A stretch of DNA of 64,000 nucleotides, taken from assembly GCF_019649055.1 (NCBI RefSeq), contig NW_026570296.1, positions 434,001 through 498,000 of the forward strand, read 5' to 3'. Below are positions 532 through 59,640 of this stretch, piece by piece; positions within the stretch are counted from its first letter, which is position 1; each line of letters opens with the position of its first letter. The translations under genes and the position numbers were made by a program. This DNA comes from Paramacrobiotus metropolitanus (lineage: Eukaryota; Tardigrada; Eutardigrada; Parachela; Macrobiotidae). Under the pieces are notes generated by a model, which was given only the letters and a program-made list of their open reading frames with translations, was not told the origin of the DNA and ran no database searches.

Positions 532-15919
<15,388 letters not shown>

Positions 15920-24170: not shown

Positions 24171-24185
24171 TAATGCCATGCCACA

Positions 24186-24368: not shown

Positions 24369-25010
24369 CGTGATTTGACAAATAACCACAATATCACGGA
24401 TTGCACAAATAAACTTAAGGCAGCGGAATCAGCGGAATAAAATCACGGTAATTGTAAATGATTAAATTAAAGTAAAAATTCATAATAGGATACATTCAGG
24501 ATAGGAGTTTGACAGCCGCCCATACTGGCGACCGCATACTTCGTAACCAGCGAAGTCCGTTAACACACGGCCTACGGGAGAGCGTGTGTATAGCAGCAAC
24601 ACTTTTTGACGCAATCAGCCACTTCACTAGAGTGTGTATATCGATTCAATATACACCAAGCAAATTACAACTTTTAATACACCAAAAGCAACTTCCGAAA
24701 GATTTAAATTGTTTTTCTCGCAACGTTTGAGGCTCGTAAAATTACAAATCGTTCCATCAGTACAAAATTCAGGGAAAACAGAACCATAACTGTAGGCTCG
24801 ATCACAACTGGGATGAGAGCAAAAGAACAGCCGTTTTAAATGCTAAAAGGCAGCAGCTATAAAATTATACGCGATTGAGCGTGCCACGCTGAGACACGGT
24901 TAAAGACGCGAAAAAAGGCACAAAACAGCAGAGATTCAACAAAAGGGCTCATACAGAGTTAAATCTGAAACCGCAATTTAAACACACGAACGGCCGATTG
25001 GCAAAAGTCC
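24369..25010 (-). other. Spacer between accessory genes B and C
   Basis: No gene seen. It is conserved in the second copy (60359-61007), including the block around CAGGATAGGAGTTTGACAGC, so it may hold a promoter for gene C. Confidence 0.45.
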
Positions 25011-25822: not shown

Positions 25823-26425
25823 CGTAAAGCCGAAGGGATATAAAGTTTGGATTATTACGAGAAAGTCTAAATTCAGAGATTCGCAAAAGACGCGGGCGAA
25901 AAGTAACTGGCAAGACTGAACAAGCAAAAGTGCTGACGTACTGCGTATAGACCGGGAACAGCTGTATGCAGTCAAACTGCCACTGCCCTAACATTTAGCG
26001 ACACACGGGCGGTTACTACAGAGACATAATTGTTTACATGCTCAAACGTGAAGACTTTGCATTTTTTTTCAGAACGCAAGGGGATTTACACCTTTTATGT
26101 TTAGCTATACTGTTTCGTTTGAATTTCCCGGGAATTGTGATTTTAAACAATCGGATTTAAATACTATTCCACCATTTCTTGCCAAACTGCCAATTTAATA
26201 TCGTGCAAGGCCGACAACGGTAAGCCAATACATAAAAAAGTTGTGCACTAAAAAGCAACGCTAAAAGCTAATTGTAGAACTGACAGATAAAAGGCTGTAC
26301 CGAATTTGTGAACTCAAAGAAAGAGGAGGGTACTCATTTCAAACCATGAAAAACACTAAATAATGGCGAAGTAGAGGGCACAATAACGTAAAAAGCTTAT
26401 TAAATGCTGTGTTGCAGGGAAACGG
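25823..26425 (-). other. Spacer between accessory genes A and B
   Basis: No gene seen. Most of it is conserved in copy 2 (61830-62398), for example around GACATAATTGTTTACATG, which suggests regulatory sequence. Confidence 0.45.
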
Positions 26426-27277
26426 CTAAACAGCAGCGCCCATGTTATCGTCGTCGTCATCACGGCGTGGACGATGGCGTTTGGCGATCGAAGCATCCAG
26501 CTTGCCCGGGCCGCGTTTCTCCTGTCCTTCATGTAACAGCCAACGACTTTGTTGCAATTGCTGCTGTTGTTGGGATGAGGAGCGCGGATCCGCTGCATTC
26601 AAGCGCTCGAAGTAGCGCTGCTCCGCTTCCAAGCGGTGATCCTCGTCAATATTGGAAACCAGTTCCTCGATATGCTGGTTATACGCGTCCACGAGCGTGA
26701 CAACGGCACCATGATCTCCCGTTTCTCCTGGAACATAATCCAATGCAGTGAGGAACTCAATGGGGTTACGCACTACGTTGATGCCGTGGTTCCGACGGAG
26801 TTCGTAGACAATCTGTCCGATAAGCCATCCTTGACGGAAATCCACACGCAGGTAACGCAACAATGCATAGTGTGCGTCCTTTGACAGATCCAGAGTGTGG
26901 ACAAAACGGTTATATTTGTCCACCGTCATCTCCGATCCATTATGGTAAATCTTGCCGCGAAAACGCAATCGAGTCTCTGGATGCAACTCCACATAATCTC
27001 TGTCCGGATTGTAGGGACGATTGATGATCAAACCAGACGGGGGAATATAACTCTTTCCTCCACGAGCATAGTCGTGCGGGGACGGACGAAGGCCACAATC
27101 CACCATGCGATGGGACCATTCAAATGTTGGTTCAGGCCATCCAACATGAGGATCGGGATACATTGGCGGCTGGACTTCGGCCGAGACATCTGCCAAAACC
27201 TGCACCGAATCTTCCGAGGAGCTCGTGGTATCCTCATGCATGAAGGAGTGGTGTGCTGGCACTTTCGGGCGATACAT
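26426..27277 (-). CDS. Retroelement accessory protein A (283 aa), unknown function
   Basis: It lies 342 bp after Gag-Pol on the same strand. It has a Ser/Asp/Glu-rich N-terminus, a central compact region (FEWSHRMVDCGLRPSPHDYA; FVHTLDLSKDAHYALLRYLR), a Gln run and a basic tail RHRPRR before an Asp run, possibly a nuclear signal. There is no signal peptide or membrane segment, so it is not an Env protein by sequence. A very similar frame lies at 62399-63244, and conservation between copies argues that it is functional. Confidence 0.82.
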   Translation of the reverse strand: MYRPKVPAHHSFMHEDTTSSSEDSVQVLADVSAEVQPPMYPDPHVGWPEPTFEWSHRMVDCGLRPSPHDYARGGKSYIPPSGLIINRPYNPDRDYVELHPETRLRFRGKIYHNGSEMTVDKYNRFVHTLDLSKDAHYALLRYLRVDFRQGWLIGQIVYELRRNHGINVVRNPIEFLTALDYVPGETGDHGAVVTLVDAYNQHIEELVSNIDEDHRLEAEQRYFERLNAADPRSSSQQQQQLQQSRWLLHEGQEKRGPGKLDASIAKRHRPRRDDDDDNMGAAV

Positions 27278-27619
27278 TATCAGAAATTGTTAGGCGTAAA
27301 ATCAGTGTAGAAAAGGAACAATTTCACGCAGGATTGAGAGTGAATTAATGAATGCCACTGATCTTTACAGGTAAAAATCGCATTTGCGGCCAGCTAAAAG
27401 CAGCTTTTCCACTCAGATGATATGCCGAAAGAGCAACGAACGCTACTACGTCACTGCGGACTGTCCAATGGCGAATACACACCGACAATCTGTACGTACA
27501 AACAGTTTGGGAATTTTCCAGGCAATTTAATGCAGTAGAGAGTAAAAATTTCAATCCTTAGAGTTCAAAAATAAAATGAAATAAGATAAATGTACAAATT
27601 TACACGGCCGCTCGGCCTT
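27278..27619 (-). other. Spacer between Gag-Pol and accessory gene A
   Basis: No gene seen. Just beyond the Gag-Pol stop the palindrome GGCCGAGCGGCC (27606-27618) is conserved at 63575-63588 of copy 2. AAAAGCAGCTTTT is conserved near 27394-27407. Confidence 0.45.
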
Positions 27620-30600
27620 TTAATCGTTATTACATAACGTACAAATCTTATTAAATTTGTCGCAATCGCGCTTCATTTCGGGCCAGAAAAATCTAAGCTT
27701 CGAATATAAATAATCGTACGGGCAAATAGCACTGCAGTATTTGTGTAGCAGCCGACGATGGACAGATTCGACTAGAATTTTACGCCATTGAAAAGGTATT
27801 AATATTTTAGGGACCCGCTTTAATATATCAGCCTTTTCTCCGTAATGACAGACAATGCCGTTTACTTTCAGCACTAAAGGAAGATGCCAGGCCGCGTACG
27901 GGGATTCCTCTAAGGTACAGTCTCCGTTGACAACGGCGTCCCACAACATCAGGTCACTACACTCCAATTGTCGGTACTTCCAGAACTCCTGTTTATCGAG
28001 GGCGTCATCAGTAATCACGCCCTGAGGCCAAAACTGCTCAATTGGGCGTGCCCAGGCCGGAACTGGGAAAGTTCTGTCTTCTATAACTGCAGCAGAAGTT
28101 TTTGTTGGCCGCGCCGGCCCAATCTCCATTGCGTTACAAGTAATTGGCGAAGTATCGCTCGCCAATGGCTCGACTGAATCAGATAATCTCTCTCCCGGCT
28201 GGGATACATTCAGAATAGCCGGTTCTCTATTATTTGTGACCATACGCTTTTTAACATCAGCCGACGGGTCTCTTTTACGCTTTTTGTCATTGTTTTGATT
28301 AATAAGTCTCTCTACAGGTTTCACTACACGACCGGATCGGGTTTTGAGCAATGGAACCGCTTCCATCTGGTTATCCAGATATTCGGCGTACTCAGCATCA
28401 AGGCGCGACGATGCTGAGTCAACGGATGGAATCACCGGCGGCGGCGCGGGCACCTCAACTAACTCATCAGGGCATTCCTTCTCCACACAATCGAGCAACT
28501 TCGGTAAGTGCTCGTCTTGTAGTATAGTATCAACGTCGCGGAAATTATACGGCTTTAGGCGGCTGACATGTACCGTGTCAGTTTTGACGTTCCCACGCCT
28601 ATTACTCTTAACTACGTAATGCACTGGTCCTGACTGACGCACAATTTCCCATCCAGCGGTCCAACGGGGCATAAGGGATGGATTTTTCCCCACTTTCCGA
28701 TGAAGTACGTATACCAAAACTTGATCTCCCGGTTTATACAATACATGTGAAATATTTGCATCGTAACGAATTTTGTCCTTAAGTTTATGGCGAAACTCTT
28801 CTGCATTCACCAAGTCCAAGGCCTCACCAAGGCCGCGCTGCATCTGCTGTACGTATACATGGGCGGGAATCACAAAATCCTCTTCAAACGGCAGGAAGTT
28901 ATTTATTGGTAAGCGCATCTCAGTGCCATGCATCATGAAGAATGGTGAGCGGCACGTTCGCTCCACAATCTTACTGTTAAATGCCGCACAAAGTGCTGGG
29001 AGAAAAATGTCCCAGTCACTTTGCTGCTCATTCACATATTTAGCTAGCGCCTTTTTGATTTCCCCTACACGTTTTTCAACAAGTCCATTACCCTGCTGAT
29101 GGCCTGACGCCGTCGGTGCGTGAGCAACACCAGCGAGAGCTAAGAGCTCTCGGAACATCTCAGACATGAAATTACTACCGCGGTCTGAGGTGATGTGCAC
29201 AGGCATACCGAAGACCGTGAGGATACGACGATAAAAGAACAACGCCAGTGTGGCAGCGTCATTTCTCTCGACCGCCTCAGCCACAATGTATTTGCTCCCG
29301 TAATCAACAGCGATTATTATGTTTTTGTTTCCAGATTCCGTCGTTGGGAGGGCCGGAGCAACGTCGATTGCCCAAACTAACCGAGGTGGAACAGTCGGGT
29401 TTGACTGGAGAGCGCCGGCCGGTGCCGTAGCAAGAGGATTTTGTGCAAGGCACGCCGGGCAAGAAGCACAATAACTTTTAACAGACTCGAACATACGGGG
29501 CCAATAAAAATACTTGTACATCCTTTTATAGGTGGCCAGGACGCCCAAGTGTGCTGCTAACGGGGAATCATGGTTATCCTGAAGGAACTGAAGCCGCCAG
29601 TGAACAGGTACATACATGCAGTAATAGATCTTGCGGTTTAATTCAAATTTGTAGTATACAACGCCCTGTTTCACTACAAATTTGTTTAGGTGTAATTTCT
29701 CGTGGTCTGACATCTTTTCCTTTTTATTCTCTAGGAGCAGCCGCCATCGGACAATTCGCGCATCGCGAGACTGCTCTTCAGCCCAATATGAAGCCTTATC
29801 GTCTGTAATCAACTTCTGCACCTTATCCTCATCAAAGGCTTTCATGTCTTCCTCTGGAATGGCTTTAACCTCGGCCGACATCATCTCAAAGCGGATATCC
29901 ACATAATCTCTCTCCAGAACAGCGAAACAACACTCGATCATCGTGGCATCACCGGCGAAAGGGTAAGTTTGCCGATAGTCAAACTCGATGTCTGAGTCGT
30001 CAGAGTCGGGTTCCGGTTGCTCTCCTGGATTTCTACTCAAGGCGTCAGCAATAACGTTCTCTTTGCCAGGTATGTGAGCAGGCTTAGTATTAAATTGCTG
30101 GATATACAACGCCCAGCGCCCAAGGCGGCCAGCGGCATCACGCATATTATTAAGGAAGACCAGCGCCTGGTGATCGGTCTGGACTTCAAACTGGTAGTCC
30201 GACAAATAATGCTTCCATTTTTTCAGAGCACAAATAACTGCATAGGCCTCAAGCTCAGTAGGGAAGTAGAGCCTTTTCTGTGTTTCAGTCAACTTGCGGC
30301 TTAGATACGCGATAGGACGCCAATTTGTCGGCACATCCGTCGGTTTACCCTTGGGACATTGCATAAGAACTGCACCCACAGCAATAGTACTGGCATCGAC
30401 AATAACTCGCGACAAAGCCTCCGGGTCATAACGGGCCAAGACCGGCGCCGTCACCAAGGCCTCCTTCAATTGTTCCACAGACCTACACTGATCCGTTCCC
30501 CATTCAAAGGTAACTTTTTTAGGAATCAACTTTTGAAGCGGCTCAGCGATCTCTTGAAAATTCTTAATAAATTGGCGGTAATATCCTACCATACCTAGGA

Positions 30601-33600
30601 AACGCAGTATATCTTTTTTGTCTTTTATAGGGCCAAATTCCTTAACCGCCTGGATCTTCTCTGGATCAGTACTGATACCGAACTGGTCAACCGTGTGACC
30701 CAGGAACGTTATTGAATTTACAAATAATTCTGTTTTTTCAGGATTAATGGTCCAGCCGCATTCCTGGAGCCGCAAAAAGAGCTCCTGTAAGTCTCGCATA
30801 TGATCAGCCAGGTTTTTACTGAAGACAATAATGTCATCAATAAAAACTAATACGTTCCTCCACTTCATGTTCGCAAGCGTCAGATCCATGGCGCGCTGGA
30901 AAGCCGAAGGCGCGTCCTTCATCCCAAAAGGTAAGACTCTGTATTGGAACGTGAACTCTTCACCAACCATTGTCGTTTTACATCGGTCTTCCGGTTTTAT
31001 TTTAATTTGCCAAAATCCACTCTTTAAGTCAATCTTGCTAAAAACCGTAGCTTTATCGAGGGCATTTAATATGTCGTCAACTCTGGGAAGCGGGTAACTG
31101 CTGCCCATTAATCTTTCGTTAAGCTTACGGAAATCTACGGTTAAACGCCGGGATTTATCCTTCTTCTTCACTATACAGATGGGACTGCCCCATGCCGAAT
31201 TTGTTGGCTCAATTATACCGTCTTTAATCATTTCCTGTGTTTTAGCTTGGAGCCATTTGCGGTCTTCAAACGATGTGCGATACGGAGGAGTTCTGACCGG
31301 CAAACTCGTGCCTGTATCCACAGAGTGCTCATATATGGTACAACAACCCACAGGACGCGCTTTAGTCGGTAAAACTGATTTCGCCTGATAAAATATGGCC
31401 TTTAATTCCTCCTTGCTGGGGCAGATATCACCAACTTTAATTTTTGCGAAGGTTTCCTCTGTTTCAGGATCAACGGCGACAGGGGCGGACGGCTGTGATT
31501 GCATCGCTACACATTCGGTAATTTTCTCCGGGACTGGAACACCCTTGTCATCACTGGGAACACCACTAATCGCTTCTTGACAACTCTCCTGAAACTCCGG
31601 AGAGTCCATTTGGTACACTGCGTCCACCAGCGCGACTTCGCCAAGGTTGGTTTCTTCATTCAAAACGAGCGGTTTGTCAGAAACGTTAACAACGCAGACT
31701 CGGCAATTACCATACTCATTTAGCGTTAAGACGCCATCGAGTAATACGGCGTTTTTATTTGACTCTGGTATTTTTCCTTCGTAGAGAAACGGCTGGGTGT
31801 ACAGGTATTCGTCTTGAAATTCCATGAACTGTTCGTCAGACATCGACGTCGTTGCGCGAATAATTCCCTGTGAATGGGGCTGAATTATAACCGGCGAAGC
31901 TGGAAACAGCTCCATTTTAAAACAGTCAATTGGACCGGGTTCTGGCTCGAAGCGGTAAACATCGTGTTCTACCGAATTAACTTCAACCTGTGCTTGTGCC
32001 TGTTTCAGATGGGCGTCCCTGTACGCGAGCTCGATGACATCCTTCGAATAGACACATGCCGGGATGTCAGTGGACTCACGAACGTCCTGAGATCGTTTGG
32101 GCAAATTTTTAGCCGTCGGTTGTTGCAACACCGGTGCCGGCGGCACTATCTCAGCAGACATCAGACTTGCCGCCTCTCTCTCGGCGTATTCCCGCCGAAT
32201 TCTGCGGCTGTAACTGGACTTTTTACGCCTAGGAGAATTCCTCCCCGAACATTCCGGTGATGGTTCGTAGTTTCCCACGGTGGGTTGTACTGGATTAATA
32301 GCTGCAGATTCGCTCAATGCTTTTTGTCTCTGAATGTCATTCCAGATTTCCCACTGTTCATTAATATTAATTTTTGTCGCAACATCGTAGGTCGCTCTGA
32401 CATCCTCCGAAACGAACTCAGACGGCTTCGGCGGCGGTGAGTTACTAATCATTTGAGAATTTATTTCTCTTTGCTTCTCCGCCTGTTTATCTTCATAGGA
32501 GACCGGACACGGGCCAATATTAATGGGCTTCATGCTTTCCACGGGGATAAAGTTACCATTTTCAAATTCACCTGCTGGTGCCGGGTTATCCACAGAAAAG
32601 GTAACTTTACGTTTTCCTGTAGCTTTCTGTGCGTTTAATTGCTCCGTGCGTTTCAAGGTTTCAAAATGCCGGCGATCATTAATCGAGTTTCGGCACACGT
32701 CGCAGTTCTTCTCGTACCGTTCAATTTCAATTATACAGTCCGGCCAGTAAAATAATTTCACCAAGTACGGATATAATTTTTCATAGGGGCCATATGCTTG
32801 CTTATGAATTAGAATTTCATGAAAGCAGGCTATCAACTTTTGTCGCCATTGGTGCGGTACATAAACTCGTGGGCAAGCGCCAGAGTGATCAGGCACTCTA
32901 CATAATATTCCTTCACATATGACAAATCTGTTAATCTCGTATTTGGTAAAATTTGTATTAGCGTGTGACGGTTTTTTGTACATTTTGTACCACATCCGGC
33001 TATCAACGCACTGCTGCTGAGTTTCACGCCAAAACTGTGGGTCACGGAATCTTTTTTCTGAAGGGAAGAGCTGTTTATCCTGTGGCCTGTCCATCGGCGT
33101 CATCCATTTCTTCAACTCTGGATTGCGCGCCATGTAAGACGGATAATCGTGGACTTCATCGACGTCCCTGCGGTCGCGCTCAACAGGTATAACATTAAGC
33201 AATTTGTTATCCATGCTAAGACATTCGACCACCTTCGCTGATTTCCCTAAAACACCCATGTATAGATATTTTGCTGCAGGATGCTGCTTCAATACTGCGT
33301 CCACCGACGAGATTTGAATCGGAAGTTGCAGGAAGTCGTCACCCCCACGAACTTGACTGGAGCCAGTGTTAGGCACAGGACTAATCGATACCGGAGACGA
33401 GGTACTCGGACTGCTTGCCGGCGACGGCTGTACAACTTTTTCCTTTTTAACTGGCGGCTGGGAGGACGCCTGTTCTCTCCCCCGCGGACTTGACTGCATA
33501 CTATTTACAATTGTTTCCCCGCCTCCCCCACGAACTTGACTTGGTTCTGGGTTTTTCTCCACTTTAATTTCCTTTTTAATTGCAGGCTTGACTGGTTCAT

Positions 33601-36600
33601 CGGCTACGGAAGCCGCTCTCGGGAGATATTGACGAATCATCTCCTGTACTACGCTTCGAACAAACTCTTCATCGCGCTGGTCAGATCCCTTTTTAATCGG
33701 AGCTACCTGAACTGATGTAGTTTCTTTAATTTCCGTTTTCACCGGAGCATCAGCTGTTTTAATAACTGGTAGCGGCGCGGCTGGACGCGGCCACTCCTGC
33801 TTCGCTTTTTGTAAGTGTAAGATACAAATTTCTGGGTCAGCTTTTGCCAAAATTAAATGTGCAGACTCATATGGCACAAATTTTGCCTCCTTAGCGACAC
33901 CGATACGCTCTGTCAACATCAACGCAGGGATTGCAGGAGATGGCTTAACTCCTGCAGGAATTAACGGGTCAAAATCATGTGACCTAATGACATCGGACAT
34001 GAGGTGAGTCTCACGACGGAAAAATGCCGGAGCATTAGGCTGTCTACGCGAGAGACGCCACGTCATAGTATTCATATCCAGAATAAAAGGCTTTGTAGCT
34101 AAAAAGTCTAAACCTAAAACCACGTGGTCCCTATCAAAAGTGGAACTCACAAGCACTGCGTGCTCGAAAGCCATCCCAAATTCATGGATGGTGACCACTA
34201 CCGACAATGGCTCGATCAACTGTCTTCCTTGATACGCTGTATGTACAACCCTGCCTTTAATGTGATCCGGACAGCGGTGAATATTTAATTTTAAATCTTT
34301 AGCCATCTTCAATGACATAACAGAAATACTAGAGCCCGTATCCAGCATAGTCTTCACTTTCTGATAATTTATATCGATTACAGAATACCAAGCCTGGGCA
34401 TCCAGCGTCGGCAACAAACAAACGTGATCTGCCAACGGATATTGCGAAAAATCCTGAACTTCCATTTTATTGCACTGTGGCGGCGGTGTGGACAAACCAG
34501 CCGGTAAGTCCAACTCCATCATGTTAATCTGCTGCTGCGGGTTATTGTAGCGTGCCAACAATTCTGCAGACGGTTCATACTGTCGGGGAAGTACAAACTG
34601 ATTCGTACAACCTGCAGCTGGATGAAGACCATGACAGCGGAAACAAATCTCGACTCCGCGATTTGTTCGCCATTTATCCTTCAGGATATTTCGTTCATCA
34701 AACGGAGGTTGACTACCGGCCTGCTGATTTTGCCGGTAATTCTGGTTATTTTGCTGACGATTATTGTTGTTGTTATAGCCACCTCGTCCGCGGTAATTAT
34801 TATTATTATTTCGGTAATTTCCACGATTATTACCGCTATTATAATTGTTATTATTCGCAGGGCCATCCTGTTGGTACTGCGGGTCGAAATTCTGTACCGG
34901 TTGCTGGAACTGAGGCTGCATAACCGGCACCATTGGATTCATCATCTGCATAGGAACGGGCATCGCAGCCTGCATGGAAATAGGCTGCGGGAAGGTCTGC
35001 GCAAATTGCACCGGGTGTTGTTGCTCAACGTATTGCGGCTGTTGAAACACCGGGACGGGGACGAACTGCGGCTGGGGCACATTCAGGACAGGCTGCACAG
35101 AAGCCACCGAATTCTGCGGCTGGGGAATCACCGTTTCCGTGTACGAACGTGAATATCCGCCTCGGTTGTTGCCATAGTTTCCGCGGCCTCCCCGGTTCGA
35201 ATAATAATTTCCTCTCTGCGACGAGCCACCGCGGCCGCCTCGATTTTCATAATTCGAATTATTATTATTATTATTGCCGGCACTTCTGGGCTCCGCAGGA
35301 GCATTTCTCTGAGTTGATTCAGGTGTCTTCTTATCTTTATTCATGCGCTTCCATAGTTTTTCGCATTCCTGTAACTTCTTCTCAAATTCCGCATAATTTT
35401 TAGGTGCCGCATTATAAATTTCACGGAACCATGCCGGCCGATGTTCCTGTACGCCATCAAGGAGTGCCTCCACCTGCTCTTCATCCGATGTTTTTAGTTC
35501 CTCAAACCATGGGAGGAAACTATCCAGGTAAGCACGGACTGGTTCATAAAATTCCAATTTACGATTATTCATTTTTCGGCGAATATCGGCTTTAGACAGC
35601 GAGCCGTTAAAGTGCTCAACGATAGCCGGCTTAAAGAAATCAGGCCACGATTTGCCTTTATTGTCCTTCCAGAATTTTTCAAACCATTGAAATGACGGAC
35701 CGGTGAATGCACCGATTACTCTGCGACACGTCGTTTCATCATTCCAGTTATTCGTGGCTCTACATTGTTCAACATTCATAAGCCACCTTTGGATTTTTTC
35801 CGGGTGAGCATCATCAAAGGCAAGTAGCTTCATGCCTCCTACTGTTTTATCGCTGTCTTTTTCCACAATTTTTGCTAAAAGCTCAACAACGCTTTCTTGA
35901 GTAAGCGTCGTTCTATCCGAGATTTGGGTCTGTTTATTCAGCCATTCCTCCAGCTGAGGATTTCTGGACATAGATTCATTACTTGCCGTGCTACTGGGGC
36001 GACGGTGTTCATCCTCCATTAGGGCATCATCCATCAGTTCATTTTCTGTATCCGAACTGTCTCTATTTTCTGTTCCTCGCATCTGGCGACTAGATTCGTC
36101 AGCTGTTCTTTTCAGGATTTGTTGGCGTAAGTCTGTTGAGCCATTTTTCCTCTGTTTCGCAGATGCCGTTTCCCTTGGAATTTGACTTTCTGAGGATGAA
36201 CGCGGCATGGCCTGAGCCTCCGAGAATTCGACTCGTGATTCCTGTCTAGGCCTGCGCAAAATGCCAGCTGGATTACTACCAGTAGCTAAAGGCTGATCCA
36301 CATATGACGAAAAATTTTGGGGATTAAATGGTGTAAAAGCGGGAGGACGTAATACGTCTCCTGTTGCTACCAGCGCTTCCCTTTGAAAGTATCCTTCACC
36401 GCCGCCAAGAACGGTATCTGTATTTCGAAGCCGACGAAGTTCATCAAACGCTTGCTTTAGATCCACTTCCATCTTGGTAAGTTGATCTTGTTTTTCATGC
36501 CATTCCCTTCGGCATTGCGCATTTTCTTCATACAGTCGATTACACCTTTCAGACTTTTCATATGCGTCAGCCTGTGCTGTATTTTTCGCTTGAATCGCGT

Positions 36601-38227
36601 TCTCGCAATTATCACATCTTTTATCCTTTTTCGAATCTTTTAATTCCTTTTGGGCCTTTTGGACATTCTCTCGCTCCGTAGTCAACAGACCCTGCAACCT
36701 CTCGATTTCCTTTTGGGACGCATCATCCTTTTCCTTGGGAATATGCATCGGGCCGACTGAAGACTTATTATTCAGCTGCACCCTCGCTTGTGTGAGTTCA
36801 CGCTGTAGAGAGTCTTCCACATCTTTAGCCCGTTTCTTTTCATCTTCCAAATCTTTGGTAAGTTTTGTGACCAGGTTCTGCGCATCCGTCAAATTTTTAT
36901 TAGTTAATTTATGCGCATCTTTCTCAGAATTACAATCTTTCTGAGCTTTCGAGAGCTTTTGGTTCAAATCAGTTATTTGTTTCGTTAAATCCGGTGCTGG
37001 TTGCGCACTGAGGCCATCAATCGTAGCTTTCGCGTTTGAAAGATCTCTCTGGGCATCTTCCAACTGTTTTTCAAAATTACGATTCGTGTCTTTTAAAGTA
37101 TCGCGCTCATCTTGCATTGCATTAAATGCGGCCTCCGCATTTCTGTTGGCTTGTCTTATACTGTGCAAATTATCATTCGCAATGCGTATTTCATTAGCCA
37201 ATCTGTCATTTTCTATTTGTTCATTTTCGAATTTGATACGCATTTCATTGAAATCTTTTTGAAATTTCAATTTTTCGTTTCGTTCCGCATCTACGCGGGC
37301 GTCTAGAGACATTGTATTACCCATTTCATCTACTTTTGTTTTTGTAGATGCGATGAGCGTGCGGAGACTTTGGATCAATACGGGCATAGTTTGCCGGACT
37401 ATCAAGCCCACGTCTTGGTCAGTTTCTGCCGCAGCTAACTGCTCATCGACTTCCCTAGCTTGGGTAAGGAAGTCCTCATCTGGTTGTTCGAAATCCTTTT
37501 CGGACACAAAGCTATGTAATTTTAGCTGTGCTGGGTGGAATGTCATTGTTCCACCACGAATACTTTTGCTTGCTCTTGTTTCTGATCCCTCGGATATGTC
37601 TGCTTTATCCGCGGCCGCCAACGCTATTAAATTATTGTCCGACTGGGACGACTGAGGTTCTGTTTGGCTCTCAGCCATACTTGGGGTTTCCGATATGGGT
37701 TCATCCAGTATCGCGCCGGATGCCTGAACTGGCATTTTCTCCTTGGCACCGCGCGTGACGCGCTCATTTGCTGCTTGTTTTTTGGGAGTTTTTCCGGTTG
37801 CTTTTGACGCTGTAAGCGCAGCTTGGGCCGCCTCTCTGCGTCTATTCAAATCTTCCGTATATTCTGGCAGCCACCTGTTTGCATCCTGCAAGGCAGCTTT
37901 AAACTGCTCATCAGTAATGTCCAGGTAAGCTTCAGGGATACATCCCTCGTACTCAATCCAAGGTTTAAAATGTGCTGGTAATCTCGTTTTGGAATTTAAG
38001 TACCGCCTGATTTCCTGGTAATCAATCCATGACTTTCCACAGAATGCATCTTGTGCTTCTGGTGGTTCGACATTAAGAGCGATGTACATTAAATTCAACG
38101 GGATTTCTTTTGCATTAAATTTAAACCTTGTCTGAGCTCTCGACCCATCGTATGCCCCAATAATCACTTTATTATCTGGGATTTTACGCGGTGGTGGGCG
38201 ATTTCTAGGAATCGAACCGCCCGACAT
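27620..38227 (-). CDS. gag-pol: Gag-Pol polyprotein, single frame, 3535 aa
   Basis: One uninterrupted frame encodes, with rough residues: a long coiled coil (about 230-650); a retrotransposon Gag domain (about 800-960); an Asn/Gly/Arg-rich region and a CX2CX3HX4C zinc knuckle (near 1196); a retropepsin with LDTGSS (1297); an HHCC module (1800-1845); a linker; reverse transcriptase with FIDD (2463); RNase H (about 2590-2720); integrase with its own HHCC (2885-2922) and a D-D-35-E core (SDRGSNF near 3014); and a third HHCC module at the very end (3490-3530), stopping just after CTLC. Gag and Pol share one frame, so particle stoichiometry cannot rest on frameshifting. It is far longer than usual gypsy Gag-Pol, and all catalytic residues I can check are present, so this copy may be active in trans. 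Confidence 0.93.
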   Translation of the reverse strand: MSGGSIPRNRPPPRKIPDNKVIIGAYDGSRAQTRFKFNAKEIPLNLMYIALNVEPPEAQDAFCGKSWIDYQEIRRYLNSKTRLPAHFKPWIEYEGCIPEAYLDITDEQFKAALQDANRWLPEYTEDLNRRREAAQAALTASKATGKTPKKQAANERVTRGAKEKMPVQASGAILDEPISETPSMAESQTEPQSSQSDNNLIALAAADKADISEGSETRASKSIRGGTMTFHPAQLKLHSFVSEKDFEQPDEDFLTQAREVDEQLAAAETDQDVGLIVRQTMPVLIQSLRTLIASTKTKVDEMGNTMSLDARVDAERNEKLKFQKDFNEMRIKFENEQIENDRLANEIRIANDNLHSIRQANRNAEAAFNAMQDERDTLKDTNRNFEKQLEDAQRDLSNAKATIDGLSAQPAPDLTKQITDLNQKLSKAQKDCNSEKDAHKLTNKNLTDAQNLVTKLTKDLEDEKKRAKDVEDSLQRELTQARVQLNNKSSVGPMHIPKEKDDASQKEIERLQGLLTTERENVQKAQKELKDSKKDKRCDNCENAIQAKNTAQADAYEKSERCNRLYEENAQCRREWHEKQDQLTKMEVDLKQAFDELRRLRNTDTVLGGGEGYFQREALVATGDVLRPPAFTPFNPQNFSSYVDQPLATGSNPAGILRRPRQESRVEFSEAQAMPRSSSESQIPRETASAKQRKNGSTDLRQQILKRTADESSRQMRGTENRDSSDTENELMDDALMEDEHRRPSSTASNESMSRNPQLEEWLNKQTQISDRTTLTQESVVELLAKIVEKDSDKTVGGMKLLAFDDAHPEKIQRWLMNVEQCRATNNWNDETTCRRVIGAFTGPSFQWFEKFWKDNKGKSWPDFFKPAIVEHFNGSLSKADIRRKMNNRKLEFYEPVRAYLDSFLPWFEELKTSDEEQVEALLDGVQEHRPAWFREIYNAAPKNYAEFEKKLQECEKLWKRMNKDKKTPESTQRNAPAEPRSAGNNNNNNSNYENRGGRGGSSQRGNYYSNRGGRGNYGNNRGGYSRSYTETVIPQPQNSVASVQPVLNVPQPQFVPVPVFQQPQYVEQQHPVQFAQTFPQPISMQAAMPVPMQMMNPMVPVMQPQFQQPVQNFDPQYQQDGPANNNNYNSGNNRGNYRNNNNNYRGRGGYNNNNNRQQNNQNYRQNQQAGSQPPFDERNILKDKWRTNRGVEICFRCHGLHPAAGCTNQFVLPRQYEPSAELLARYNNPQQQINMMELDLPAGLSTPPPQCNKMEVQDFSQYPLADHVCLLPTLDAQAWYSVIDINYQKVKTMLDTGSSISVMSLKMAKDLKLNIHRCPDHIKGRVVHTAYQGRQLIEPLSVVVTIHEFGMAFEHAVLVSSTFDRDHVVLGLDFLATKPFILDMNTMTWRLSRRQPNAPAFFRRETHLMSDVIRSHDFDPLIPAGVKPSPAIPALMLTERIGVAKEAKFVPYESAHLILAKADPEICILHLQKAKQEWPRPAAPLPVIKTADAPVKTEIKETTSVQVAPIKKGSDQRDEEFVRSVVQEMIRQYLPRAASVADEPVKPAIKKEIKVEKNPEPSQVRGGGGETIVNSMQSSPRGREQASSQPPVKKEKVVQPSPASSPSTSSPVSISPVPNTGSSQVRGGDDFLQLPIQISSVDAVLKQHPAAKYLYMGVLGKSAKVVECLSMDNKLLNVIPVERDRRDVDEVHDYPSYMARNPELKKWMTPMDRPQDKQLFPSEKRFRDPQFWRETQQQCVDSRMWYKMYKKPSHANTNFTKYEINRFVICEGILCRVPDHSGACPRVYVPHQWRQKLIACFHEILIHKQAYGPYEKLYPYLVKLFYWPDCIIEIERYEKNCDVCRNSINDRRHFETLKRTEQLNAQKATGKRKVTFSVDNPAPAGEFENGNFIPVESMKPINIGPCPVSYEDKQAEKQREINSQMISNSPPPKPSEFVSEDVRATYDVATKININEQWEIWNDIQRQKALSESAAINPVQPTVGNYEPSPECSGRNSPRRKKSSYSRRIRREYAEREAASLMSAEIVPPAPVLQQPTAKNLPKRSQDVRESTDIPACVYSKDVIELAYRDAHLKQAQAQVEVNSVEHDVYRFEPEPGPIDCFKMELFPASPVIIQPHSQGIIRATTSMSDEQFMEFQDEYLYTQPFLYEGKIPESNKNAVLLDGVLTLNEYGNCRVCVVNVSDKPLVLNEETNLGEVALVDAVYQMDSPEFQESCQEAISGVPSDDKGVPVPEKITECVAMQSQPSAPVAVDPETEETFAKIKVGDICPSKEELKAIFYQAKSVLPTKARPVGCCTIYEHSVDTGTSLPVRTPPYRTSFEDRKWLQAKTQEMIKDGIIEPTNSAWGSPICIVKKKDKSRRLTVDFRKLNERLMGSSYPLPRVDDILNALDKATVFSKIDLKSGFWQIKIKPEDRCKTTMVGEEFTFQYRVLPFGMKDAPSAFQRAMDLTLANMKWRNVLVFIDDIIVFSKNLADHMRDLQELFLRLQECGWTINPEKTELFVNSITFLGHTVDQFGISTDPEKIQAVKEFGPIKDKKDILRFLGMVGYYRQFIKNFQEIAEPLQKLIPKKVTFEWGTDQCRSVEQLKEALVTAPVLARYDPEALSRVIVDASTIAVGAVLMQCPKGKPTDVPTNWRPIAYLSRKLTETQKRLYFPTELEAYAVICALKKWKHYLSDYQFEVQTDHQALVFLNNMRDAAGRLGRWALYIQQFNTKPAHIPGKENVIADALSRNPGEQPEPDSDDSDIEFDYRQTYPFAGDATMIECCFAVLERDYVDIRFEMMSAEVKAIPEEDMKAFDEDKVQKLITDDKASYWAEEQSRDARIVRWRLLLENKKEKMSDHEKLHLNKFVVKQGVVYYKFELNRKIYYCMYVPVHWRLQFLQDNHDSPLAAHLGVLATYKRMYKYFYWPRMFESVKSYCASCPACLAQNPLATAPAGALQSNPTVPPRLVWAIDVAPALPTTESGNKNIIIAVDYGSKYIVAEAVERNDAATLALFFYRRILTVFGMPVHITSDRGSNFMSEMFRELLALAGVAHAPTASGHQQGNGLVEKRVGEIKKALAKYVNEQQSDWDIFLPALCAAFNSKIVERTCRSPFFMMHGTEMRLPINNFLPFEEDFVIPAHVYVQQMQRGLGEALDLVNAEEFRHKLKDKIRYDANISHVLYKPGDQVLVYVLHRKVGKNPSLMPRWTAGWEIVRQSGPVHYVVKSNRRGNVKTDTVHVSRLKPYNFRDVDTILQDEHLPKLLDCVEKECPDELVEVPAPPPVIPSVDSASSRLDAEYAEYLDNQMEAVPLLKTRSGRVVKPVERLINQNNDKKRKRDPSADVKKRMVTNNREPAILNVSQPGERLSDSVEPLASDTSPITCNAMEIGPARPTKTSAAVIEDRTFPVPAWARPIEQFWPQGVITDDALDKQEFWKYRQLECSDLMLWDAVVNGDCTLEESPYAAWHLPLVLKVNGIVCHYGEKADILKRVPKILIPFQWRKILVESVHRRLLHKYCSAICPYDYLYSKLRFFWPEMKRDCDKFNKICTLCNND

Positions 38228-38995
38228 TTCTGCTTTTTATTTTAAATAACCTTTGCGGCTATTTAAAATAAAAGGTACAGCAGCGATTGTGCTACTGGTT
38301 TCAAAAATTGCAATTGTGCAATTACTGTCTCCTCACTTCCCAATCCTCCTTTTAGGTTTGAATTGTTCAGTGAGTTTAGACACAGCCAACCTTTGCGGTT
38401 TCGACTGTAACAAATTCTTAAAATTACACTGCTGCACTTTGCGTGCTGCTGTAATTTAAAATTCACAGGTCAATCACCGTTTGCCGGTGTTTACCTTTTT
38501 CACGGTCAACTCTCTCTAGCTGCTGATTTTGGCTACCGCTTGCGGCTTGCCTGTATCAGTCTGCTGGAGATCGTTATCTCACCTGGCCACCGACAATGGC
38601 TCGGTGTTTACTATCTGCTCTATCTGCAGGCCAGGTACACTGACACTGCAGATTACGCTTTATTCGCCGCGGTTACTGCTTTGCGCAGACAACCCGGAAA
38701 TTACCCACACAGACACCGAATAATTACACAGCCGACCTTTAAGGTTTCGACTGCTTAATCCTACGGTCCAATTTAAATTAAAATTTAATTTAATTGGCGA
38801 GGAAGCTCACCAGTGAGGAAGCTCACAATTGCGAGGAAGCTCGCTGAAAATAAATTAACTAGGCCAGATCAGGAACGCTGACCTCCTTCGGCGTACCTTT
38901 GCGGTTCGACGCCTTTCAGAAACGGACCACTTTTTACCAATAAATTACCATCAAACTTTCCACCAATAATTTTCTGTTACATCGGGAAAATTAAA
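38228..38995 (-). promoter_or_regulatory. Structured 5' leader with GCAAA-loop hairpins
   Basis: The 768-nt leader between primer site and Gag start has no long frame. It holds hairpins with the same loop GCAAA (element strand) at 38235-38273 (17-bp stem), 38388-38400, 38475-38489 and 38890-38913. It also has three near copies of GAGGAAGCTCAC at 38798-38845. Such structures often serve packaging, dimerisation or translation control; here that is inference. Confidence 0.6.
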
Positions 38996-39013
38996 AGACA
39001 CCGGTGGGCGCCA
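38996..39013 (-). other. Primer-binding site, tRNA-Lys type
   Basis: Directly next to the 5' LTR the element strand reads TGGCGCCCACCGGTGTCT. The first nine bases are complementary to the 3' end (TGGGCGCCA) of animal tRNA-Lys, the primer of many gypsy elements. Confidence 0.85.
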
Positions 39014-39588
39014 TGTCGTGTATAAGCGTTCACGCCGGTTAAGGCTCCATGAACAATCTTTACTCTTCCACGCCTGTAATGCTCAATCGGTAGGCACTCG
39101 TACTCTCAAACTGTAACAGAAGAACTAAGGTGGAAATAGGACGAACGAGTCAGGAACATAGAAGATCAGGAATCCCTCAGGAACGAGCTAACCACAACTT
39201 CCGGTCGTAAGTCCTGTGAGGATCGGCAAGAGCTGGGACGATTGTGTCACGAGCAAACCTGTATACTAAGCGATAATCCGGGAACAACTATGCACTTCAG
39301 TAGGAACAAGTATTGCTGTCTCTTTATCCAATTCACATCACAGTTCACAACGCTAGGAAATCGTAATTAGAAGCAGTCTCAGAAGTAAATCTCAGACTAC
39401 TGATCCCGATATTAGGCATCACCAGAACTTATATAGACTTCGCGTTATGACATCATATACATCGCTAGTAAAAGAGAACAGCAAATCACAGAAGAGATTG
39501 ACTAGATTATCCTTTACGTTGCAGGTGGAAGGCGGACAGTCAGCATCCAGTACGTACATCCGGCGTATGATCCTACTCCCATACGTCA
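39014..39588 (-). repeat. 5' LTR of copy 1 (575 bp)
   Basis: On the element strand it starts TGACGTATGGGAG and ends ATACACGACA, the usual TG...CA ends. The same 575-bp unit lies at 51357-51931 with a few substitutions. It should carry promoter and polyadenylation signals, though I cannot place them. Confidence 0.93.
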
Positions 39589-50985: not shown

Positions 50986-51356
50986 AGTAAAGCTTTAGCC
51001 ATTGCATGACAGACTGCCGTCAAACACTTTACCATTTCCGAAATTTTGTATATTCGTTTTAAATTATAACATCGTAAACATATTTAGTTGTACATACTGC
51101 ACGTTTTATCGCTTTTTCACAGCATAATAATAGAATCAATAGAATAATAGATCCATACTACCGAAAAGAGGGGCGGCAAGCGCTTTATCTCGTACGTCAG
51201 AAGACTGGAAACTGCAAAACGCGGCAAAATGGCCTAGCTGAAAACGCTAGCGTGGTAGCGTGCGAGTTTGATTCGGATGAGAACAAGGTCTACTACATTG
51301 TGAGCACTATTTACTTGCTGTCGCTGATAGCGCAAAACGAATAAAATCGCTGATAG

Positions 51357-51931
51357 TGTCGTGTATAAGCGTTCACGCCGATTAAGGCTCCATGAACAAT
51401 CTTTACTCTTCCACGCCTGTAATGCTCAATCGGTAGGCACTCATACTCTCAAACTGTAACAGAAGAACTATGGTGGAAATAGGACGAACGATTCAGGAAC
51501 ACGAGAAGATCAGGAATCCCTCAGGAACGAGCTAACTACAACTTCCGGTCGTAAGTCCTGTGAGGATCGGCAAGAGCTAGGACGATTGTGTCACGAGCAA
51601 ACCTGTATTCTATGCAATAATCCGGGAGCGATCATGTACACCAGAAGGAACAAGTATTGCTGTCTCTTTATCCAATTCACATCACAGTTCACAACACTAG
51701 GAAATTGTAATTAGAAGCAGTCTCAGAAGTAAATCTCAGACTACTGATACCGATATTAGAAGTAACAGGAACTTATATAGACTTCGCGTTATGACATCAT
51801 ATACATCGCTAGTAAAAGAGAACAGCAAATCACAGAAGAGATTGACTAGATATTCCTTTACGTTGCAGATGGAAGGCGGACAGTCAGCATCCGTACGTAC
51901 ATCCGGCGTATGATCCTACTCCCATACGTCA
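51357..51931 (-). repeat. 3' LTR of copy 2 (575 bp)
   Basis: Same length and ends as the LTR at 39014-39588, differing by scattered substitutions. Confidence 0.92.
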
Positions 51932-55482: not shown

Positions 55483-56092
55483 ACTCCAAATGTAAAAGTG
55501 ACAAATTAATCGTGAAAAGATAGGAGAACAAAACAAGCGAATACCAGCTGTTGCAGAAAAATGGAAGGACTGGAGTGCAGAGAAAAAGCACCACAGACAA
55601 TCTACACTGGCACCGACACTGGAAATGCAGAATTCATGGAGTATACCACCAGGCGGTTGACAGGCGACAGACTGAATTTTGCGAATTTTGAAGCCACTAT
55701 GATCATTTGGCGTAGAACACACAGGAGACCAATTAATTCGCCGAGGATTTGTAAATTTCCACCACAAAAACCGAATTTTAATACAACAAACGAATCATGA
55801 CGATTAAAGGTATACGAAAGAGGAAAGCCCGAATGAAAACACGCGGCTGGGAAATATTCAAAACACAGACCAGAGACTGGCGCAGTTTCCGATAGCATTG
55901 CCATATCCGGGCGGCTGACGCGTGACAAAATGCCGCATCGCAAGCATCGAAAATATCAGCTGTTCATTCATAAAAAGCGAAGAACCCAACAATATTTATC
56001 CTCTCGCGGTGACGGGTTTTCTGTTTCATTTATTACTAGCTTGTTTCTTTTCATCGAATTTTATTTTAGTCATTTCGAATCTTCCGAGCATT
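55483..56092. promoter_or_regulatory. Divergent promoter region between genes E and F
   Basis: A 610-bp gap separates the start codons of two genes on opposite strands inside the element. No TATA placement is certain. Confidence 0.4.
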
Positions 56093-57447
56093 ATGTCAGC
56101 GCAGCCTGTAGGACCATCTGGAGAGCCTCTGCCATCGCCCGAAACGGATGCGATTGCCCACTACGAATACTGGAAGGGACGGACTCGCGAATCAGTTCAG
56201 TTTGCCATGGCGGAGCCTCTGCAGCCAAAGGAAACCATCCGAAACCGTCGACAATTGGTGATGCATACGGCAGCCCACGCGTGCATCCTTGAGGCTGACA
56301 TTACGGGATATTATGTGGACATGTCATCAATCAAGAAATTCATTGTGGAAATGCACGACGACTTCACGGAAGAACGAGTGGATTTCTTCCTCGGCGACGC
56401 TATTAATGCTGGAATCTTGCTCAAGAAGATGAGCCGCGACGGGCGCTTCGTCCTAGAAGTCGCCGAAGAAGTCAAGAATAACCGCGATCCCGAGACGAAG
56501 GTAATCGACACAACTAGCAAGTTTCGTCGGATGATTCGCGTGATCCTTTACCACGGCCGATACGCCATGTCACGCACCGAAATCCAGCACTGGATCTGTA
56601 CGTTCGACGTACAGCTGCAGGACGTAGACTACTGGCTGGAGCGCGGGCTGCGCCAACTGGTTAAAAAGAAAGATATCGTCGTCGTCTACGGAAATCTTTT
56701 CGTGGACAGCTGCATCGACCTGTGGCTACGAAGCATTCGCGGCTGCTGTCTCTGCACCACTCTAGCCCAGACCATCAGTAAGTGTTTGTGTTTTTCAAAA
56801 CGGCATTTTCGATATTTACGTTTTAAAATAGCCTTAACAACGCTGTATACTGCAGATCATCTTGCCTTGCGTAATTTAATAGAATGATTTATTGTGCAGA
56901 TATCAAGATGGGCACAATGAAGGTGACAGTCAACGGAAGAGACACAGAACAACACTTTGCCGATTGTAGCTTCGGTTACGTGGGACAAGACGGGGATTTG
57001 GTTGTCGATGGCGTCATGGAGCGGCTGGACGCAATCGAGCCGGCAAAGAATAATACCGCCAACGTGAATTTGGTAATCCGGGCTAGCAAAGACGGACGCA
57101 TCGAGCGAGAACCAATTATCACGCTCACTCAGCTAAAAGCTACGGGCGGCCGTCCTAAATACGTTCCCCGATCGAAAAATACGGATACCAAACAGAAAAG
57201 CCAGAAGATGAAGGAGAAGGCTGAACGACCTGGCGCTGAAGTGAGCGCTGCTGAACCGGATGCCATCGATAAATTACTGCAGCAGGTTGAGCGCGAAAAA
57301 GACATTATGGAGAACTGCAAAGCGCTGGTAAACACGCTGAAGGCTCGAGCGACCATGGATGCTAAACATATCGCGTATATCCGTGAGGCTTTGGAACAGC
57401 GTCTTGCCAACTTGAAAACTGCGAAGGAGAATTTGGATCTGGATTAA
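56093..57447 (+). CDS. Opposite-strand accessory protein F (410 aa), spliced
   Basis: Exon 1 is 56093-56777 (start MSAQPVG), the intron has GTAAGT and TTGTGCAG ends (56778-56899), and exon 2 is 56900-57447; the join is in frame and totals 1233 nt. Two stretches look like winged-helix modules: SSIKKFIVEMHDDF with DAINAGILLKK and GRFVLEV, and ILYHGRYAMSRTEIQHWICT with LRQLVKKKDIVVVYGNLFV. The C-terminal part is basic, then coiled coil (LLQQVEREKDIMENCKALVN). It may bind DNA (inference). Being antisense to the retroelement, it cannot be made from the genomic RNA and needs its own promoter. Confidence 0.68.
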
Positions 57448-57870
57448 ACAGCAGTTGTAACATATCTGATAATTTCCTGCGGCTGTCTGATAATTTGTTC
57501 TAAAATTCGGCCGACTGTTAATTCTTCCGTTTAATCTCACTCCTGTTGGTCTAATAATTCTCACTCATACAGATTCTCGTATAGTCACTAATTTTGCTGG
57601 TCGGACAGATCTTAATTTGAGATTAATTTTGGATTTATGTAGCATTTCAATAACCGCAATAAAATCGGTGTAAAAGTATACGCAGTCACAGCTGCAGACA
57701 ATTCCGATATAGAACGGCCAATTAACAAAGTAAAATCAAATATTGCAGCCGTAAGCGTGAATCAAACGCTAAAAGCAATTTTAATATTCTATCCGGGGGA
57801 CAAGGTTACAAAAACCACCAAAGAAAAGTAAAAAGAATGGAAAGGAACTTTTAAAACTTGCAAAATTTGT
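57448..57870. other. Spacer between gene F and the tRNA-like array
   Basis: AT-rich, no gene or clear signal. Confidence 0.4.
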
Positions 57871-57875
57871 ATTCA

Positions 57876-57946
57876 CGCAGGATTGAACCTTGCATCTAGG
57901 TGGACAACTAAATCCTGCTCTTGCCCATACGCTAGCATGGCTATAC
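57876..57946 (-). ncRNA. tRNA-like unit 1
   Basis: Box B GGTTCAATCC and box A TGCTAGCGTATGGGC on the minus strand. The arms pair poorly. Confidence 0.5.
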
Positions 57947-58159
57947 CACATTTTACTTTTAATTTGGCAATCACCGGAGGCGCTGTACTACGAAAATTCA
58001 CCATATAATAAAAATGCACAGGTGAAGCAGCTGATAAGTTTTAAGATTTCAGCACGATCATGATCGTAAAATTCATGCCGATAACGGGAATATTTCCACA
58101 AGAGTGCAAATAAAAATATAAACACAAAAAAAGTAAGATTTTAGAAAATGCAATTTTAG

Positions 58160-58243
58160 ATTCAAGGGGTTTGGAACCCGCAACCTTCATTGCACCTGTT
58201 GTCGTGGTTCAACAGTTCAGTGCACTACGCCACTACGATCTAC
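58160..58243 (-). ncRNA. tRNA-like unit 2
   Basis: Box A GTGGCGTAGTGC, box B GGGTTCCAAACCC. A 5-bp stem CTGTT/AACAG encloses a 10-nt loop. AGAT/ATCT can pair as part of an acceptor stem. Confidence 0.6.
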
Positions 58244-58375
58244 GAAGCTAAACTTTTAATCCGCTCCTCGGAAATGATCATAGAATTACCAATCTCGAAA
58301 TCAACTTAATGCTGCATATAGACTTAAAAATATACAACCGAAAAAGAGGGTTTTTAAATTAAACGGATTAACTTT

Positions 58376-58449
58376 TAGGATTTCGAACTCTAGACTTTGT
58401 AAGAAGCGGGTCGGTATGGATTGTCAGTCTAGCCACTACGCCACAAGGT
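58376..58449 (-). ncRNA. tRNA-like unit 3
   Basis: Box A TGGCGTAGTGGCTAGA, box B GAGTTCGAAATCC. CTAGACT and AGTCTAG form a 7-bp stem around the middle. Confidence 0.55.
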
Positions 58450-58599
58450 ACTCTACGCTTTAGCCGAGTTAGGTTGAACACCGGAAGCGCCATGTCGTGT
58501 ATATTTAACCTGACTGCAATAAGGCAGCAAACCATTAACACTTCGTCCCACAAAGGTACCAAAAATATAGGGCAGAAAAATGTAGTTTTTTAAGCATGC

Positions 58600-58690
58600 A
58601 GCATGCAACCCTGAGATTAAGACTAGCCGTTTAGGAGGTAGTACATGAGGCGAATGGCCATCATTCATAGCCACTGAACTACAAAGTCAT
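58600..58690 (-). ncRNA. tRNA-like unit 4 (degenerate)
   Basis: Box A TTGTAGTTCAGTGGCTA is good; box B GGGTTGCATGC is degenerate. Confidence 0.4.
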
Positions 58691-58867
58691 TCGAATACAG
58701 ACAGACAGACGGCCAAGTGCAATGTTAACCATTGAGTGTGTATACAATTTTACGCCCAGCTCTTTGAGTTTAATTCTAATATTCTGGGAACTATTGTCAA
58801 TACTTTCCAAAGACGAAAACAAAAATATAAAACGAAAAAAAGTAAGTTTCTCAAAATCGCAAATTTG

Positions 58868-58952
58868 CTGTAAGGGACTTGAACCCGCAACCGTTTCATT
58901 TCCCCGTTGCTGTAGTTCAACGGTGCAAAGCACTATACTACGCTGTTCTACG
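58868..58952 (-). ncRNA. tRNA-like unit 5
   Basis: Box A GCGTAGTATAGTGC, box B GGGTTCAAGTCCC. The stem CCGTT/AACGG with a 10-nt loop matches that of unit 2 with one compensating pair change. Confidence 0.65.
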
Positions 58953-59077
58953 ACAGTAATTTTTGAATTCGCTCATCGGAAATGATCGTAAAATTACAAC
59001 GGTCAACGGCAATGCGTATCTGATGCTACTTTTACAATATAAAAAGCAAAAAAGAAGGTGTACGAAAATGTGCATTA

Positions 59078-59161
59078 CTTGTAAGGGTTTCGAACCCAAG
59101 GCCCTAAATTCACCGAGTAGTCGCGGAGATAAGGCGGACAACCACTACACTACGAAGTCTC
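59078..59161 (-). ncRNA. tRNA-like unit 6
   Basis: CGTAGTGTAGTGGTT equals the D arm of animal tRNA-Val as I know it; box B is GGGTTCGAAACCC. ACTT/AAGT pair as an acceptor, and GCCTTA/TAGGGC form a stem with a 23-nt loop, longer than an anticodon loop and possibly intron-like. Confidence 0.65.
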
Positions 59162-59317
59162 ACGCTATAAACACAAAATCCAAACGAGAAGGGCTGTACA
59201 ATTATGTGCCGCTCGTTGAAAACTAATAAGGAATTAACGGTATCACACCGAATGTGTAAGTACAAACAAATGCAAAAATTCAAGCACAAAAAAGAAGGTT
59301 TTAAGAAAATGCTTTTG

Positions 59318-59409
59318 ATTTTTGGGGATTGGAACCCAGGACCAGCAACAGGTAAACGGATTCGCCTGGTATTGTCCTCTTTACTGGACCACTCGACTAC
59401 AAGAGTCAT
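59318..59409 (-). ncRNA. tRNA-like unit 7
   Basis: Box A TTGTAGTCGAGTGGTCC, box B GGGTTCCAATCCC; the stem ACCAG/CTGGT encloses a 20-nt loop. Confidence 0.6.
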
Positions 59410-59561
59410 CGACAAAAATAATACTGATAACACAGCTGGCAGTATTCATTTTGACACCTCTCAACAGCGATTCACCCAATATTCCCCATATTAAATCCCA
59501 CGAATAAGAATATGACGATTCATGAAATAAAAACCAAAAATGAGGATATTTACAAAATCGC

Positions 59562-59640
59562 GTTTTTATGTGGACTGGAACCTCCGACCTCCAATGACGA
59601 AGCAACGGAAGCCTCTACTATACTAGCGGGGTCGCTCTAC
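59562..59640 (-). ncRNA. tRNA-like unit 8
   Basis: Box A CTAGTATAGTAGAGG, box B GGAGGTTCCAGTCC; the stem CTTCC/GGAGG encloses a 14-nt loop. Confidence 0.55.

Follow-up and report, generated by a model that had tools for sequence, protein, structure and literature searches.

Elements and genes in the window

The window analysed here comprises bases 434001-498000 of contig C76 (64,000 nucleotides) of Paramacrobiotus metropolitanus, and genome searches were performed against 169.8 Mb of this species. Two related LTR elements are located in the window, one bearing an array of short repeated units and the other a sister copy from which the array region has been lost (23953..39588, minus strand). 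The sister copy retains a single open gag-pol reading frame (27620-38236, minus strand) for a 3538-aa polyprotein, in which protease, reverse transcriptase (RT), RNase H, and integrase follow the Ty3/gypsy order. The same polyprotein holds two integrase-type H2C2 stretches. The true primer site of the sister copy was found at 39013, just inside the LTR, and its true LTR-end/primer-site junction at 39024.

The 3' LTR of the array-bearing element was placed at 51353..51931 on the minus strand, and LTR-to-LTR comparison placed the 5' LTR outside the window at C76:515708-516281. Over 575 bp the two LTRs share 99.65% identity, and CTAT flanks the element on both sides as a short target duplication. 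The span is 30.9 kb from LTR to LTR, or about 24 kb once two extra copies are discounted, because a 3.4-kb segment occurs three times in a row (window 62935-64000 and L046 1-6793). The 1.07 kb of this segment that was compared is 99.8-99.9% identical, and the triplication is either a recent duplication or an assembly artefact. The primer site TGGCGCCCACCGG matches 13 nt at the 3' end of the host tRNA-Lys(CUU), including the CCA. By domain order, LTRs, primer site, and target duplication, the carrier of the array is a giant Ty3/gypsy-type LTR element, in agreement with the original prediction of a giant retrotransposon. A scan of viral contigs with the polyprotein gave no match, and a protein search with the ORF at 62399-63256 gave none at an E value of 0.001. 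Elsewhere in the window, ORFs with ZSWIM/MULE transposase-like domains at 10203-13852, with inverted tandem-repeat blocks (85% alike) on either side, probably represent a DNA transposon, and a minisatellite with units of approximately 6-88 bp, some of them inverted, occupies 40821-41541 between the two elements.

A two-exon gene lies antisense to the array-bearing element at 56050..57447 on the plus strand (ORF region from 55919; exons at approximately 56.05-56.79 and 56.89-57.447 kb). It runs toward the array, as expected from the predicted arrangement of opposed genes, and an AATAAA is present at 57658-57663. Among the copies of the element, variability over 56198-56797 is 0.19-0.32 at the third codon position and 0.025-0.078 at the other two, and this third-position variability is seen in two frames of the gene. 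The antisense ORF, used as a protein query, returned two P. metropolitanus proteins from NCBI (410 and 404 aa, 75% alike); the 410-aa tardigrade protein, which joins both exons, matched at 95% over 71% of the ORF. The product had no Pfam match over the cut-off. To the eye, the first half of the protein is reminiscent of winged-helix or linker-histone domains.

Organization and conservation of the array

The array is located on the sense strand of the element (minus strand of the window) at 57.83-59.64 kb. Eight units on a single strand, each with an A box and a B box, had been predicted to repeat every 240 bp or so. Both motifs were recognized by eye in all eight units, and the B-to-B pitch is 211-289 bp, with a mean of 242 bp. 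From unit 8 to unit 1, the A-to-B distances are 43, 63, 56, 55, 71, 54, 54, and 45 nt, compared with 42-45 nt in 20 host tRNAs, so that the claim of a tRNA-like distance is exact for units 8 and 1 and does not extend to the other units (54-71 nt).

Conservation was assessed in other copies of the element. A total of 40 stretches (L009-L048) were fetched, and 38 of these were aligned with the window to give 39 rows; L046, which is the element's own continuation, and L047, which is cut by a contig end, were left out. The diversity profile over the 39 copies has eight troughs, one per unit, with a mean diversity of 0.079 in the units versus 0.162 in the spacers. None of 2220 circular shifts was as low as the observed unit diversity, the P values of this test being descriptive because the profile had been viewed before the unit limits were set and because the copies are related to one another. 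The units occur at the same positions in 33-38 of the 39 aligned copies, and all eight are present in 28 of the 39 rows, which answers the suggestion that the array be sought in other copies. Among the remaining rows, six lack exactly unit 6 (6 of 38 copies), L043 lacks unit 7, L045 lacks unit 5, L048 lacks units 5 to 3 together with the junction copy described below, and L034 and L037 are cut. These comparisons indicate that the array units are under constraint (selection) within the family.

All units are read on the minus strand, and terminator counts are given as copies retaining the run. Unit 8 (59536..59640) has an A-box-like motif at 59625-59614, a B-box-like motif at 59582-59572, and a T5 run at 59540-59536; its mean diversity is 0.055, falling to 0.013 between the boxes, and TTTT is kept in 37/37 copies and T5 in 36/37. 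Unit 7 (59288..59405; A 59399-59388, B 59336-59326, T6 run 59293-59288, TTTT 30/30) is the least conserved, at 0.130. In unit 6 (59048..59160; A 59152-59141, B 59096-59086, T6 run 59053-59048, TTTT 37/37) the A box has a diversity of 0.015 and the B box 0.050. The stretches between the boxes of units 6 and 7 are mildly constrained (0.113 and 0.128, respectively). Unit 5 (58835..58955; A 58940-58929, B 58885-58875, T7 run 58841-58835, TTTT 36/36) has a diversity of 0.074 and is a paralogue of unit 2; the A boxes of units 5 and 7, at about 0.10, are near spacer level, as is the B box of unit 3 (0.148). Unit 4 (58561..58690; A 58681-58670, weak B 58610-58600) has a diversity of 0.070 and is followed by two T5 runs at 58580-58576 and 58565-58561, with TTTT kept in 37/37 and 36/37 copies, respectively. 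Unit 3 (58341..58456; A 58443-58432, B 58389-58379, T5 run 58345-58341, TTTT 36/36) has a diversity of 0.077, with 0.057 between its boxes. Unit 2 (58126..58245; A 58232-58221, B 58178-58168, T7 run 58132-58126, TTTT 37/37) has a diversity of 0.092, with 0.040 between its boxes. Unit 1 (57830..57965; A 57934-57923, B 57889-57879), whose A box was positioned from a matching unit in the relative L074, is the most conserved, with a diversity of 0.033 over 57862-57965 and 0.007 between the boxes; its TTTT at 57865-57862 and T5 at 57834-57830, which lie at +14 and +45 from the B box, are each kept in 37/37 copies.

In units 2-8, a run of T5-T7 begins 32-36 nt beyond the B box. Of 250 copy-unit comparisons across these units, 249 keep TTTT at this terminator and 243 keep T5. 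No TTTT is found between the A and B boxes in any of the eight units. T runs after units are kept in 0.85 of copies (25 runs), compared with 0.65 for those in spacers (17 runs). The array therefore has the terminator arrangement of an RNA polymerase III type-2 gene, with oligo-T beyond the B box and none inside.

Box matrices were trained on 20 of the 60 listed host tRNAs, and a strict rule was defined that combined the matrices with a T5 run. The host tRNAs scored 12.0-19.0 for A boxes and 9.8-17.4 for B boxes, and the array units scored -1.3 to 12.2 and 1.1 to 15.8, respectively. Five units have one weak box, namely the A box in units 8 (-1.3), 1 (1.0), and 5 (2.5), and the B box in units 4 (1.1) and 3 (4.3). 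Over the whole window and both strands, the strict rule gave four matches, all in the array (units 7, 6, 3, and 2), with no match elsewhere in the window, LTRs included, and none in L046, L049, or L075-L078. Units 1, 4, 5, and 8 did not pass and consequently rest on conservation and terminator placement.

Several other identities were considered for the units. ARAGORN reported no tRNAs in the window or in L074-L076, and neither the array nor L074 3200-5000 was matched by the Rfam tRNA model at E values of up to 10; together with inspection of the stems by eye, these results reveal no cloverleaf with an acceptor stem. Ordinary decoding is thus as unlikely as had been proposed, and the suggestion of tRNA mimics found no support. 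Fold z-scores of the eight units range from -1.27 to +1.65, which are ordinary energies and argue against a stable precursor hairpin per unit of the kind found in viral microRNA clusters. RNAalifold drew long structures for each unit, in which the changes were mostly one-sided or broken. The compensating pair reported for the stem of units 2 and 5 is a real difference between the units (CTGTTG/CAACAG versus CCGTTG/CAACGG), but no double change occurs among 38 copies of unit 2 or 37 of unit 5, where most columns barely vary, and pair 3 of the unit 5 stem is broken in 10 of 37 copies. Selection on RNA structure, as originally proposed, is not borne out by these data.

Insertion of independent SINEs is also unlikely. 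Searching the genome with unit 1, for which 40 of 43 candidates were scored, gave 40 matches, of which 36 fall at known array copies; with unit 3 (40 of 47 candidates scored) there were again 40, of which 38 fall at such copies. Two of the few remaining matches carry units 1 and 3 together at array distance. Both matches found with an L074 unit lie inside these elements. The location of nearly all matches at known element copies, together with the shared positions across rows, upholds the view that the array is too regular for chance SINE insertion. As for units acting as primers, the only array complements of at least 8 nt to the 104-nt junction zone are A/T-rich words. Mini-elements formed by strand transfer to the junction copy were sought as a fused pattern, which occurs at 0 places with up to 3 mismatches. 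Inspection by eye also took in a reading frame from the ATG of the junction copy and, in the AATTTTG box that follows the B box, an Sm-like site; both were set aside. The exact SL1 pattern is absent, and the Rfam SL1 search was uninformative, as it rang in no control.

Relatives of the element and the junction copy

A genome search with a 401-aa RT piece gave at least 105 matches, with 103 of 1616 candidates scored, and eight elements were sampled from a group at 87-91% RT identity. Arrays are present in seven of the eight; the eighth stretch, L082, begins inside its antisense gene, past the array position. BLASTN gave no array-to-array match between the window element and any of the eight relatives' stretches, the single match (36 nt, L074) lying outside the L074 array. 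In the seven relatives 27 units were listed, with an A-to-B distance of 43-45 nt in 23 and 51-52 nt in four. TTTT or a longer run is located at +33 to +36 in 20 of the 27, and the seven units without a terminator all occupy the last one or two listed places. The strict rule applied over nine loci gave 20 sense matches and 0 antisense matches, with none in L082, whereas shuffled controls gave a mean of 0.19 matches per set and a highest count of 1 (100 sets). The unit pitch in L074 is 168-170 nt, and one L074 unit has TAGCGTATGGGC and other short blocks in common with unit 1, as seen by eye. A relative of the antisense gene adjoins the L074 array. At greater distance, no unit was found by the strict rule in 8.0 kb of L075 (70% RT identity), and neither units nor junction copies were found in 7.5 kb of L076 (58% RT identity). 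The observation of the array is confirmed, and is stronger than was originally claimed.

The gap between units 4 and 3 contains a feature missing from the original prediction, a copy of the LTR-end/primer-site junction (58478..58503, minus strand). Here TATACACGACATGGCGC includes 17 nt identical to the LTR end and primer-site start, as found at the junction at 39024, and it is the array's sole match of more than 12 nt outside itself. With a diversity of 0.008 across the aligned copies, it is nearly invariant. In the eight relatives' stretches, CGACATGGC is exact in six, has one mismatch in L080, and is absent at that limit in L081. The 8 nt preceding this core agree with the element's own LTR end better than under other assignments, 216 of 40320 being as good, although the rows are related. 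Among five groups, the junction copy tracks the LTR end of its own family in three, and plainly so in the window's family, the C80/C38 group, and the family at 70% RT identity (L075). Three junction copies in the L075 stretch read CACGTCATGGC and one reads CACGGCATGGC, and the LTR end of that family, ATTCACGTCATGGCGCCCACC, lies 7.3 kb upstream of the RT of that element, at C12:70866; this LTR-end search was performed afterwards with a pattern that already contained CACGTCA, three mismatches being allowed. Against tracking, the copies of L079 and L074 match their own LTR end at 2 of 8 positions, that of L083 fits the LTR end of L084 better than its own, and that of L085 fits the end of the window family at 12 of 13 positions versus 11 for its own. 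In L075, a 46-nt motif with the junction copy occurs four times (754, 996, 1095, and 3863) in gaps between reading frames.

Junction copies keep the LTR end and TGGC, and most lose tRNA pairing just after it; ordinary tRNA priming at these sites is unlikely for this reason. It is a tentative and rather unlikely proposal that the giant elements use two linked devices, a rack of polymerase III genes and junction copies that are set in noncoding gaps and mark internal sites where a factor that acts at the leader also acts. Such a factor may be reverse transcriptase, integrase, or a step joining leader to body, and in the window family the places marked in this way may adjoin polymerase III units.

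Predicted function and comparison with known systems

The array is probably a cluster of eight RNA polymerase III type-2 transcription units, a reading that draws on the conserved terminators, the boxes, and the arrays in relatives, and that favors one of the options listed in the original prediction, polymerase III noncoding RNAs. The internal A and B boxes of each unit would serve as binding sites for TFIIIC, and polymerase III would initiate approximately 10-20 nt upstream and terminate at the T5-T7 run that lies 32-36 nt past the B box; the products would be separate U-ended RNAs roughly 105-135 nt long. Constraint also extends to the stretches between the boxes of units 1, 8, 2, and 3, and for this reason the predicted RNAs are read as noncoding products encoded by the element; the array hints that the retrotransposon may make its own small RNAs, like a few animal viruses. 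Polymerase III moving head-on toward the antisense gene may also help to end transcription of that gene.

Binding of TFIIIC might itself be the function, with the array serving as a boundary or polymerase III roadblock that isolates the sense genes from the antisense gene or keeps the provirus from silent chromatin, and with any RNA a by-product. In the window element the array does have the antisense gene on one side and the sense genes on the other, a relative of that gene adjoins the L074 array as well, and boxes recur between families whose unit bodies are not alignable. However, a site needed only for binding would require no terminators, and these are kept nearly without loss, which favors real transcription over a TFIIIC insulator; the stretches between the boxes of units 1 and 8 are strongly constrained, and production of genomic RNA still requires polymerase II to pass through the array. 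We consider this explanation unlikely. It is much less probable still that the units are cis-acting DNA or RNA signals for packaging or reverse transcription that resemble boxes by tRNA ancestry and are not transcribed by polymerase III. The LTR-end/primer-site junction copy among the units would suit such signals, but the order of box, box, and terminator is found again in relatives without BLASTN similarity, and no RNA structure signal was detected. Ty3 is drawn to tRNA genes, and the Ty3/gypsy-type domain order of the polyprotein would fit polymerase III units that act as a landing pad drawing new element copies into old ones; this idea is barely credible, as no LTR sequence was found in the 40 loci L009-L048 (one being the element's continuation), a set whose choice by array match is biased against interrupted arrays.

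If the array is transcribed, its carrier would be a gag-pol-bearing LTR retrotransposon of an invertebrate with its own polymerase III noncoding RNA genes, kept across diverged families, and the many natural variants could be used to ask what such RNAs do. The junction copies raise a separate, testable question on reverse transcription or integration in giant elements. Among open-licence papers, judged by title or the opening of the abstract, none was found to describe such polymerase III arrays or internal primer sites for LTR elements. Burro and other giant gypsy-like elements are likewise giant LTR elements with accessory ORFs, but passages of a review that treats them describe no array, and its text has 0 mentions each of tRNA, pol III, and antisense (PMC6431247). 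The TRIMp3 elements Cassandra, Helenus, and Ajax are LTR elements with polymerase III promoters derived from small-RNA genes; they differ in that a single promoter sits within the LTR and the elements are short and nonautonomous, 311-1263 bp in Helenus (PMC10886601). The present array does not belong with TRIMp3, as its eight units are internal to an element of approximately 24 kb with gag-pol and none is located in the LTRs.

Among viruses, the TMERs of murine gammaherpesvirus 68 number eight. TMERs, which the array would resemble in this respect, are several polymerase III genes that have their A and B boxes inside the gene and end in TTTT, but they are tRNA-like, carry microRNA hairpins, and belong to a DNA virus, whereas the array units fit no tRNA model (PMC8223928). 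Bovine leukemia virus (BLV) is the closest working parallel to the array. Its polymerase III microRNA cluster meets convergent antisense transcription, and both are retroelements with a sense-direction cluster that is read by polymerase III (here by prediction) head-on to antisense polymerase II (PMC4992882). The two differ in that each unit in BLV is a microRNA hairpin and polymerase III was shown there by ChIP, while the array has no hairpin excess and is known from sequence, and in that the array belongs to an invertebrate Ty3/gypsy-type element with a protein-coding antisense gene. Transcription of the array would extend to transposons a strategy of a few vertebrate viruses.
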